Part shown: positions 40,624 to 44,067 of the stretch, one piece after another
Layout of the letters: the number at the start of each line of letters is the position of its first letter
Position numbering within the stretch: the first letter of the stretch is position 1
Assembly: GCA_022560615.1 (NCBI GenBank)
Contig: JADFSR010000031.1
Location: 1-49,806, forward strand
Direction of reading: 5' to 3'
Length of the DNA: 49,806 nucleotides
DNA from: Gemmatimonadota bacterium
GTDB taxonomy: Bacteria > Gemmatimonadota > Gemmatimonadetes > Longimicrobiales > Gaopeijiaceae
Notes under the pieces: model-generated
The model's database searches: none
The model's input: the letters and a program-made list of their open reading frames with translations, nothing else
What the model was told of the DNA's origin: nothing
Position numbers and translations under genes: made by a program

Positions 40624-42867
40624 ATGACCCCGATCCTCGCGACCGTGGCCCGCGTTCTCCTTCTTCTGGCGCTCGGGCTCGCGATCGGTGCGCCCGTTCT
40701 ACTCGTGGCCCAAAACAGCGCACCGGTTGCGAACGCCACCCGCGTGGAAGAAGCGCCGACGATCGATGGCATATTGGACGACGCCTCGTGGACGGGAGCG
40801 AGTCGGCTCGGGGACTTCGTACAGCGTGATCCGTTCGAGGGAGAACCTGTCAGCGAGCGGACCGACGTGCGGGTCATCTACGACGACGAGGCCGTCTATA
40901 TCGGAGCCTGGCTCTTCGATCGGGACCCAGATGGCATCGTGTACGGGGAGGCCCGCCGAGATGCCGATCTGAGGGACTCGGACGCGCTGTTGCTGCTCTT
41001 CGACACGTATCTGGATCGGCAAAACGGCTTCCTCTTCGCCACGACACCCGCCGGCATCGAGTACGACGGACAGATCACGCGTGAGGGGCAGGGCGGAAGG
41101 GGCCGGGGAGGAGGGAACCGGCAACAGACGGGCTCCGGAGCTGGCTTCAACGTCAACTGGGACGGCAGCTGGCAGGTGGCGACGACCCGTGACGGCGAGG
41201 GCTGGTACGCCGAGTTCCGCATTCCGTTCTCTACACTTCGCTACGGCTCCGGCGGTGCGCAGAGGTGGGGCTTCAACGTGGCGCGCCGGATCCGGCGCAA
41301 GAGCGAAGAAGCCTTCTGGTCGCCGGTGGCACGGCAGTTCAACGTCTTCCGCGTCTCGAGCGCCGGCGTACTCGAGGGGTTCGACGCTCCCGCCCGTAGA
41401 ACGGCCACGTTCACACCCTACCTGCTCGGTTCCGGGCGCCGAGACTACACGGTCTCCCCAGACCCCCAAGACGACCTCGACGGTGATGTCGGCTTCGACG
41501 TCAAGCTCGTAGCCGCTTCGAGCCTCACGCTCGACCTCACATACAACACCGACTTCGCACAAGTCGAGGTGGACGAACGAGAGATCAACCTGACGCGCTT
41601 CAGTCTTTTCTTCCCCGAGAAGAGGCCCTTCTTCCTGGAGAACGCTGGCACTTTCGCCGTCGGGACTCCGCAGAGCAACGAGATCTTCTTCAGCCGACGC
41701 ATCGGGATCGCAGGCGGTCAGGCAGTCCCGATTCTGGGCGGTGGCCGTCTTACGGGCCGCGTGGGCGGCTTCACCGTCGGCTTGCTCGACATCCAGACAA
41801 AGTCCGTCGAAGGCACCGCCCCCGCGAACAACTTCGGCGTCGCACGAATCATAAAGGAGCTGCCCAATCGGACCCGGATCGGCGCGGCGTTCGTGAGCCG
41901 CTACAACACAGACGACACGGACGACTACAACTTCACGACGGCGCTGGACGGACGGCTCGGTATCGGAGAAGCGCTCACCTTCGATGCGTATGTCGCCGCG
42001 AGTACCACACCCGGTATCGAGAATGACCAGACTTCTCTTGCACTGACTGGCTCGTGGACCTCACGCGACTGGGACTTCGGGGCCTCATATCGACGTGTCG
42101 GCGAGGGTTTCAACCCGGAGGTCGGTTTCTCGCCGCGGGGTGAGCATCAGTTCCAGAGCGTCCGCGCGTTGCGTCGCATCCGCGTCGACGGCGTGGAGTG
42201 GTTCAAGGAGCTCCGGCCCCACTTCTCCTACATGGAGCACTTTTCGCTGGACGGCTTCAGCGAGACGCGCACTTGGCATATCGACTCCCACTTCGAGTTC
42301 GCCAACGGAGCGTTCTTCCAGCTTCCAGGCATCAACTTCCGCCGAGAGGGCCTGCGGGAGTCCTTCGAGATCTCCGAGGGCATCTTCATTCCGGCAGGGA
42401 CGTACGACAACCCCGACTGGGGCTTCCGCTACAACACGAACCAGAGTGCGCCACTCTCCGTGCAAGGCAATATTGACATCGGCGGCTTCTACAACGGCAC
42501 TCGCTTCGGGACCGGGACGACCGTAACCGCGAGGGTGAGCGACACCTTCGTGGCGAGCCTGCGCTTCAACTGGTTCGACGTCAATCTGGACCAAGGCGAC
42601 TTCCAAACATCACTGATCAGCTTGAAGGCGGCGTATGCCTTCACGCCGAGCATCTATCTGCAGTCGCTACTTCAGTACAGCGATCAAGCGGACTCCTTCT
42701 CCGGCAACATCCGCTTCGGCTGGCTCAACACGGCCGGCACCGGGTTCTTCCTCGTATACAACGACCTGCGCCACACGGGGTCGTTTCTCGAGACCGGCAT
42801 CCCGAGGGGTCCGCTCGATCGTTCCTTCGTGGTCAAGTTCACGCGGCTTCTGAACCTCGGCGGGTAG
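40624..42867 (+). CDS. CBM9-like/DUF5916-type outer-membrane protein
   Basis: The 747-residue product has a signal peptide ([19 protein letters not shown]), a CBM9/DOMON-like beta-sandwich at about 35-230 ([46 protein letters not shown]) and a long C-terminal part built of alternating beta strands ([51 protein letters not shown]) that ends in a hydrophobic strand ([14 protein letters not shown]), as in outer-membrane barrels. This domain pair is common in Gemmatimonadota and Bacteroidota and its function is not established. A Gly/Arg-rich loop (GGRGRGGGN) sits near 160. Its last 29 bases overlap the convergent DAHP synthase. Confidence 0.85.
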
Positions 42868-43879
42868 CTATTCCGCGGCCTGCCGCCGCCACGAAGGGAC
42901 GGAGACCGTCCATGAACGCATCGAACTCCGCGAAGTCGAGCGACTGATCCCCGTCCGAGGTGGCGGTTTCCGGATCCGGGTGGACCTCGACGATCAACCC
43001 ATCGGCGCCGGCGGCGATCGCCGCGTACGAGAGCGGAGCGACTAGATGGCGGCGGCCACCGGCGTGCGAGGGGTCTGCGATGACCGGGAGGTGCGTCTCC
43101 CGCTTCAGGACCGGAATCGCCGCCAGATCGAACGTATTCCGAGTCTCGGTGGCAAAGGTTCTGATCCCACGCTCGCACAGGATGATGTTCGAGTTGCCTT
43201 GGCTCATCACGTACTCGGCGGCGAGCAGCAGGTCCTTGAGCGTGGCCGCCATTCCACGCTTTAAGAGCACCGGGCGCCGGAGCCGACCTACTTCGGTCAA
43301 CAGCGCGTAATTCTGCATATTGCGCGCCCCGATCTGAAGCACATCCGCGTACGAGGCGACCAGGTCGACCTGACGGGTGTCCATGACCTCGGTGACAACC
43401 GGTAGGCCCGTCTCGCTACGCACATCCGCAAGCATCTTGAGGCCGTCCTCGCCCATTCCCTGGAACGAGTACGGGGACGAGCGGGGCTTGAACGCCCCAC
43501 CGCGCAGCGCCCGGGCGCCGGCCGCGTGTACGTGCAGCGCTGTGGCGGTCAGCATGTCGATGCCTTCCACGGAACAGGGTCCGGCGATGACCACGATGTC
43601 GTTTCCACCCATCGTGGTGTCGCCGAGCGTTACCTGGGTGGGCTCCGCCGAAAACTCCTTAGAGGCGAGCTTGTACGGCTTGAGCACCTCGTGCACGGCC
43701 TCGACCCCGGGGATCGAGAGCAGCGGTACGTGCTCGAGCACGGACTCGTCGCCCACACACCCGATGACGGTCCGATGTTCGCCCCGAGAGATATGCGTGC
43801 GCAGTCCGAGCGACTCGATGCGCTCTCGAATGTGATCGATCTCGTCTTGTGTTACGCCCTTCTTGGTCACGATGATCAT
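42839..43879 (-). CDS. aroF: 3-Deoxy-7-phosphoheptulonate (DAHP) synthase, type I-beta with N-terminal regulatory domain
   Basis: This enzyme joins phosphoenolpyruvate and erythrose-4-phosphate as first step of the shikimate pathway. The 346-residue protein has a ferredoxin-like N-terminal domain of about 90 residues ([20 protein letters not shown]), as in the Thermotoga enzyme where it binds Tyr/Phe, then the barrel with [56 protein letters not shown] and [14 protein letters not shown] 43879 is preceded by AGAGGA. Upstream lie a terminator hairpin and a leader peptide rich in aromatic residues, so expression seems controlled by attenuation on top of allosteric control. Its end overlaps the outer-membrane protein gene by 29 bases. 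Confidence 0.95.
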
Positions 43880-43898
43880 TCTGGTCGTCCTCTGAAAC

Positions 43899-43929
43899 AA
43901 AAAAAGGCCCCCGACGGGTGTCGGGAGCC
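43899..43929 (-). terminator. Intrinsic terminator (attenuator) in the aroF leader
   Basis: On the minus strand GGCTCCCGAC (43929-43920) pairs over ten positions, one of them G-T, with GTCGGGGGCC (43915-43906) around a four-base loop, and seven T's follow at 43905-43899. The T run ends 20 bases before the aroF ATG and the aroF ribosome-binding site lies in that gap. As a terminator placed between promoter and gene, it can only work as an attenuator. Confidence 0.85.
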
Positions 43930-43957
43930 TCGGTCGCCGCTCGTGTCTGCTCAGTCG

Positions 43958-44032
43958 CTACGCGCGCGGACTCCGGGCCCCCCTCCTGGGAGCAAACCAG
44001 CAATACCGATATCCGCGCGCGTGCCTGTCCAT
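43958..44032 (-). CDS. Aromatic-rich leader peptide of aroF (attenuation)
   Basis: A 24-codon frame, ATG 44032 to TAG 43958, reads MDRHARGYRYCWFAPRRGAR then SPRA. Codons 8-13 are Tyr-Arg-Tyr-Cys-Trp-Phe, so all three products of the shikimate pathway are needed in six codons. A segment after these codons, GGGGGGCC (plus 43976-43983), can pair with GGCTCCC of the terminator 5' arm, giving an antiterminator when the ribosome stalls on the Tyr codons. No ribosome-binding site precedes the ATG, but the predicted transcription start coincides with it, so the leader may be translated from a leaderless mRNA. The peptide itself probably has no function. Confidence 0.75.
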   Translation of the reverse strand: MDRHARGYRYCWFAPRRGARSPRA

Positions 44033-44038
44033 AACGCA

Positions 44039-44067
44039 ATGTTCGCAGGGGCCACCGGGGGTGTCAA
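44039..44067 (-). promoter_or_regulatory. Predicted promoter of the aroF attenuator transcript
   Basis: On the minus strand a perfect TTGACA (44067-44062) is followed after 17 bases by GAACAT (44044-44039), which keeps the conserved A2 and T6 of the -10 element. The start would fall near 44032, the first base of the leader peptide ATG. Confidence 0.55.

Follow-up and report, generated by a model that had tools for sequence, protein, structure and literature searches.

The stand-alone DAHP synthase gene aroF of the Gemmatimonadota genome studied here is preceded by what sequence comparison and modelling indicate, with a probability of about 0.93, to be a ribosome-mediated (leader-peptide) transcription attenuator. 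An open reading frame (ORF) rich in codons for the products of the pathway, and predicted to be translated, lies upstream of the gene, an intrinsic terminator separates the two, an antiterminator segment competes with that terminator, and the product codons are placed where a stalled ribosome would tip the competition. The anatomy of the element, its conservation, the partner-specific pairing of its segments 2 and 3 and the coincidence of its aromatic codons with the switch point were all computed.

The aroF locus

The window, that is, the whole stretch of DNA that was analysed (49,806 nt), corresponds to one complete contig (G000:C31) of a 105-contig, 4.5-Mb assembly, and the named relatives retrieved in protein searches belong to the Gemmatimonadota. 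The aroF gene (42839–43879, minus strand; start ATG at 43879) encodes a type Ib DAHP synthase (3-deoxy-7-phosphoheptulonate synthase) of 346 aa, which matches the NCBIfam models PRK08673 (484.8 bits) and TIGR01361 (381.3 bits) above their cut-offs and, over its full length, the PDB entries 4grs (6e-112) and 1rzm (1e-110). The enzyme carries out the first step of aromatic amino acid synthesis, which is common to all three end products. The upstream neighbour, rpiA, is divergently oriented, and therefore the aroF-proximal terminator ends no other gene. A second DAHP synthase, ~50% identical to the aroF type and located in an operon, is present in the same genomes; in the assembly studied here (L298, G000:C19:68000-80000), this paralogue is found in a string of genes, named by eye, encoding SMC, metallo-hydrolase, DAHP synthase, dnaX and recR, unusual company for an enzyme of aromatic synthesis.

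Anatomy of the leader

All components of the element reside on the minus strand. The leader ORF (43958–44032) encodes MDRHARGYRYCWFAPRRGARSPRA*, 24 codons followed by TAG, and its aromatic codons, Y8, Y10, W12 and F13, occupy positions 44011–43994 within the run Y8 R9 Y10 C11 W12 F13, exactly as a first-pass annotation of this DNA had read it (Tyr-Arg-Tyr-Cys-Trp-Phe at codons 8–13 of a 24-codon frame). Directly past the last aromatic codon lies segment 1, the inner protector GCTCCC (43988–43993), which mimics the terminator 5′ arm and, in the predicted fold, pairs with GGGGGC of segment 2. The latter, the antiterminator GGGGGGCCCGG (43973–43983), is predicted to form a duplex with segment 3 through GGGGGCC:GGCTCCC and CGG:CCG, more stably with its native than with swapped partners; its sequence GGGGGCCCGG is able to pair with the terminator 5′ arm, and the stretch GGGGGGCC (43976–43983) with GGCTCCC of that arm. 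RNA folding further predicts an outer protector stem, in which ACGCGCGCGGA (44012–44022) pairs with TCCGCGCGCGT (43960–43970); this stem is also visible by eye in the leader of a member of the same genus (L002) and is not generally conserved.

Segment 3, the terminator 5′ arm GAGGCTCCCGAC (43920–43931), and segment 4, the 3′ arm GTCGGGGGCCTT (43904–43915), were recovered by both terminator scan and folding, and the complete hairpin, GAGGCTCCCGAC-ACCC-GTCGGGGGCCTT (43931–43904), was called independently by the scan. It is followed by a run of seven T residues (43899–43905), the Shine-Dalgarno motif AGAGGA of aroF (43888–43893) and the aroF start codon, in the order already recorded in the first-pass annotation, except that the terminator measures 12 pairs instead of 10 bp. 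The earlier suggestion that a segment past the aromatic codons, including 43976–43983, can pair with the 5′ arm of the terminator was borne out by the duplex predictions and by the swap tests described below.

The ribosome-free RNA of the window is predicted to fold into the protector hairpin and the terminator, such that termination would ensue without translation. A 1:2 protector hairpin is clear in the window but is not general, as segment 3 stays paired (0.71) in most ribosome-free leaders. The energies in the window are close, at −20.7 kcal/mol for the segment 2:3 pairing versus −22.7 kcal/mol for the terminator, and therefore the outcome hangs on the order of folding, which is only approximated by simulation.

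Promoter and predicted leaderless start

The promoter proposed in the first-pass annotation, TTGACA-17-GAACAT, is present as described, with the −35 element at 44062–44067, the −10 element at 44039–44044 and a 17-nt spacer, but its −10 element is weak, matching the consensus at 3 of 6 positions, and the consensus promoter scan does not call it. Nevertheless, the position of the −10 element is conserved in relatives, and 41 of the 53 Gemmatimonadota leaders have a TTGAC-like −35 element 35–39 nt ahead of their start codon. Because only 6 nt separate GAACAT from the leader ATG (44032), we infer that transcription probably starts close to, or exactly at, this codon; the fixed spacing of the −35 element in the relatives likewise points to a transcription start at, or a few bases from, the start codon. 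The leader ORF is thus probably leaderless, to judge from the position of the promoter. Leaderless leader peptides have been documented in Streptomyces lividans, and, as appears to be the case here, the leader ORFs of S. lividans and Corynebacterium glutamicum are translated from transcripts with the start codon at their very 5′ end (PMC8079986), although the present leaders come from unrelated phyla and their leaderless state is deduced from promoter position.

Conservation and distribution

The comparison drew on the DNA ahead of orthologous genes in 59 relatives and in 150 genomes of the phylum, many of the assemblies being metagenome-derived, together with loci from other phyla. At every level from genus through family and order to class, orthologues retain a Tyr/Phe/Trp-rich leader ORF (for instance, MCARGYRYYWFAPRRGARNPRV, MNGNGRWYRFYAYAPPTGARRPRAL, MRKFGGRFYRWWYFYPSLSGGGGGAGV and MNVTTRAYGYYYYGLPSGSPGFVARG), the stop codon of which lies ~20–35 nt upstream of a terminator, while the rest of the sequence drifts, the pattern that the first-pass annotation had proposed to look for by aligning aroF leaders from related genomes. 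No attenuator was found in the 27 regions upstream of the operonic paralogue that served as the control set. The attenuator was called automatically in 56 of the 92 Gemmatimonadota regions upstream of the aroF-type gene, and approximately eight additional regions contain a leader recognizable by eye (e.g., L013, L027, L030 and L174), with a terminator missed by the T-run rule. The first-pass annotation had held that relatives without the leader frame or the hairpin would speak against attenuation: aromatic leaders recur in about two thirds of the orthologues, but ~30% of the Gemmatimonadota orthologues examined, including the whole genera g12 and g25, are devoid of the element. In four close relatives (L151, L012, L015 and L031), the promoter and/or the terminator are kept and the aromatic codons are lost, which looks like decay of the attenuator through deletion but might also result from an assembly error. 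The clustering of aromatic codons surpasses that in shuffled sequences at p ≤ 0.05 in 51/53 leaders of Gemmatimonadota, 24/26 of Planctomycetota and 6/6 of Calditrichota.

The latter two phyla display the same arrangement upstream of DAHP synthase genes (Planctomycetota, MTTLRSYYFYFWFFFTLAGRGEEGAM and MKRSWFRYFWFFYFTGLCPGAGGIS; Calditrichota, MKSLKNTFYYYGYYYYFGGWCSDSQ). Runs of Tyr, Phe and Trp codons together with a terminator were found in the planctomycetotal leaders L046, L052, L062, L065, L069, L071, L076, L083, L087, L090, L091, L101 and L109, and the leaders from Calditrichota comprise L039, L040, L078 and L244–L251. The layout of L040 is different, in that the segment CTCAGTAGATTGAG, which follows the stop codon, is perfectly complementary to CTCAATCTACTGAG, a stretch spanning the terminator hairpin. 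A Photobacterium leader (FFSWWWHF; L106:1305-1399) matches the Rfam family Trp_leader (RF00513) with 52.8 bits, yet precedes a DAHP synthase gene.

Partner specificity of the antiterminator

Pairing between the antiterminator and the terminator was assessed in 87 leaders by a swap test, in which the duplex energy of the post-aromatic segment with the terminator 5′ arm is compared between native and between-species combinations; this test was preferred to column-wise covariation because choosing the best helix for each sequence would bias a covariation count. The native segment 2:segment 3 pairing is stronger than the swapped ones, with z of −9.7 in Gemmatimonadota (n = 53) and −7.9 in Planctomycetota (n = 26), versus z between −1.3 and 0.3 for control regions taken from the 5′ part of the ORF, upstream and downstream. 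The native combination remains superior when swaps are confined to members of the same family (z −4.1, −4.2 and −5.1), and in one leader (L006) an altered antiterminator, GAGCCGAGAGCTT, matches a correspondingly altered terminator, AGGCTCTCGGCTT, over 13 pairs. With the regions used, the test was not significant in Calditrichota (n = 6), probably because segment 2 pairs there with the whole terminator hairpin, as seen by eye in L040, which falls outside the region definition.

Simulated ribosome stalling

A ribosome was placed in silico at each codon, and the pairing of the terminator 5′ arm before the 3′ arm is made was scored; this simulation ignores the RNA behind the ribosome and assumes both the footprint and the order of folding. 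In Gemmatimonadota, segment 3 is paired at 0.81 with the ribosome at the aromatic codons versus 0.50 at the stop codon, being higher at the former in 52/53 leaders, and the respective values for Planctomycetota are 0.72 and 0.35 (26/26 leaders). The steepest loss of pairing coincides with the last aromatic codon (median offset of 0 with a 13-nt leading footprint and 1 with 10 nt), more tightly than for permuted positions. For the leader of the window, pairing amounts to 0.67–0.70 with stalls at Y8, Y10, W12 and F13 and subsequently drops to ~0.2–0.5. Under the assumptions of the model, the regulatory codons are placed where stalling of the ribosome would tip folding towards the antiterminator.

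These results suggest the following course of events. Transcription would start at or beside the leader ATG, and the ribosome would trail the polymerase through the short ORF with its Tyr-Tyr-Trp-Phe run. A shortage of charged tRNA-Tyr, -Trp or -Phe would make the ribosome stall at the aromatic run and cover the protector strands ACGCGCGCGGA and GCTCCC, leaving segment 2 (GGGGGCCCGG) to pair with the emerging terminator 5′ arm, with read-through into aroF as the predicted consequence. A ribosome that has moved past the aromatic codons would instead cover segment 2, and in the window the protector hairpin may re-form behind it, so that the terminator would form and transcription would stop just before aroF. 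The proposal of the first-pass annotation that ribosomes stalling at aromatic codons attenuate aroF is strongly supported by four comparative tests, namely conservation, partner swaps, stall simulation and the position of the −35 element.

Which amino acids may be sensed

In the called set of leaders, which were chosen partly by their aromatic content, the clusters consist of 46% Tyr, 20% Phe and 8.6% Trp in Gemmatimonadota and, in the same order, 24%, 39% and 11% in Planctomycetota. Outside the clusters of the same leaders, each aromatic residue accounts for about 1–2%, in Gemmatimonadota about 1%. Tyr is invariant in the gemmatimonadotal clusters (53/53), with Phe present in 34/53 and Trp in 24/53; the corresponding counts for the family of the window are 15/15 for Tyr, 9/15 for Phe and 13/15 for Trp. 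The earlier claim that this leader senses all three amino acids is plausible for the window, where all four aromatic codons fall within the computed stall zone, but does not extend to a fixed rule, only Tyr being universal in Gemmatimonadota.

We tentatively suggest, at slightly less than even odds, that these elements form a broad undescribed class of attenuators, in which a single leaderless peptide monitors how well tRNA-Tyr, -Trp and -Phe are charged, all three together, and adjusts at DAHP synthase how much of the common precursor is supplied. Such a class would span Gemmatimonadota, Planctomycetota and Calditrichota, include the first ribosome-mediated attenuators truly answering to tyrosine, and replace separate trp and phe attenuators. 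Possible as well, though on the whole doubtful, is that the same attenuator responds in essence to a single amino acid (Tyr in Gemmatimonadota, with a weight towards Phe in Planctomycetota), the other aromatic codons being tolerated or minor. The universality of Tyr and its share of the gemmatimonadotal cluster fit this possibility, as does the Phe-Tyr-Phe leader of C. glutamicum aroF, which is reported to respond to Phe and not to Tyr (PMC11802643), so that codon content is no proof of sensing. However, Trp is enriched in the gemmatimonadotal clusters (8.6% versus 1.0% outside) and kept in most of the window's family, the antiterminator of the window leader holds whether the simulated stall falls on a Tyr, a Trp or a Phe codon, and all three aromatic amino acids are represented in 18/26 planctomycetotal leaders, observations that speak against a single input. 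In 12 related genomes, neither trpE nor the gene for prephenate dehydratase was seen to be preceded by an attenuator, in keeping with regulation at the shared step.

The leader clusters of the window and its relatives prefer TAT (0.44) and TTT (0.62), although TAC and TTC predominate in the gene itself in these genomes (T-ending, 0.12). Theory gives codon choice a role in attenuators (PMC1183508), but the preference could also reflect avoidance of G+C pairing.

Alternative mechanisms and known attenuators

Riboswitches, T-boxes and protein-controlled attenuators regulate aromatic genes in other phyla, and one of these might have taken the place of ribosome stalling here. This is very improbable: none of the 4227 Rfam models searched, including T-box and the known riboswitches, matches the window, no Rfam match was obtained in the searched loci of Gemmatimonadota and Planctomycetota, and the leader is short, mostly coding and variable in sequence, with aromatic codons persisting at the switch point. 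More improbable still is that the hairpin merely terminates a short RNA or converging transcription downstream of a fortuitous ORF, for although intergenic intrinsic terminators are common and the aromatic run alone is only modestly unlikely (p = 0.017 in 2000 dinucleotide shuffles of a 320-nt region), rpiA points away and no gene ends at the hairpin, and this reading is already contradicted by the aromatic leaders in about two thirds of the orthologues and by the partner-specific segment 2:3 pairing. The fold of the whole leader has z = −3.43, with none of 200 shuffles equally stable, and the terminator scan finds a terminator where shuffles average 0.3; the leader peptide by itself is modestly improbable, and it is conservation that settles the case for the attenuator.

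The Rfam families Trp_leader (RF00513) and Phe_leader (RF01859) gave no match in the window at gathering score, and the leader L078 of Calditrichota reached 31.1 bits (E = 0.25) against RF01859, under its gathering score of 55. The window shares with RF00513 and Escherichia coli trpL the four-segment, ribosome-mediated design but has codons for three amino acids instead of Trp alone, a segment 2 inside the ORF and, probably, a leaderless transcript. The leaders of pheA and pheST (RF01859) likewise combine a run of aromatic codons with competing hairpins, but carry Phe only and precede other genes. Leaders of the ilvL and thrL type, like that of the window, combine codons for several end products of one branched pathway, although theirs are the branched-chain amino acids or Thr and Ile, whereas the window has the aromatic trio; ilvL is known from Streptomyces (PMC8079986), and an aroF RNA has been predicted in Shewanella (PMC2659441). 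A close parallel is aroR of C. glutamicum, a leader peptide with several aromatic codons (Phe-Tyr-Phe) that attenuates a DAHP synthase operon and is reported to answer to Phe and not to Tyr (Neshat et al., 2014, via PMC11802643 and PMC4046766). It belongs to another phylum, and no Trp codon is reported for it, whereas the leaders of Gemmatimonadota are weighted towards Tyr and those of the window's family usually contain Trp; given the different phylum, the resemblance is likely due to convergence. The first-pass annotation did not know such a logic to be described for this type of organism; with attenuated DAHP synthase genes and leaders sensing several amino acids (ilv, thr) already known, to call the logic itself new is too strong. 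What appears to be new are the hosts, namely Gemmatimonadota, Planctomycetota and Calditrichota, the Trp codons and the Tyr-weighted leader, for which no prior description was found in a partial coverage of the literature; the same coverage yielded nothing relevant on attenuators in Gemmatimonadota or Planctomycetota.

Implications

In a 2010 survey, leader-peptide attenuators were known only from Proteobacteria and Actinobacteria, to which Firmicutes were then added (PMC2965389). The leaders described here would widen the known range of classical leader-peptide attenuation by three phyla, none with an earlier report that we could find, and may represent a natural sensor with three inputs where the aromatic pathway begins. 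The Tyr-, Phe- and Trp-weighted variants provide a natural series for exploring how the content and position of codons set sensing, and many small ORFs preceding DAHP synthase genes could now be annotated.
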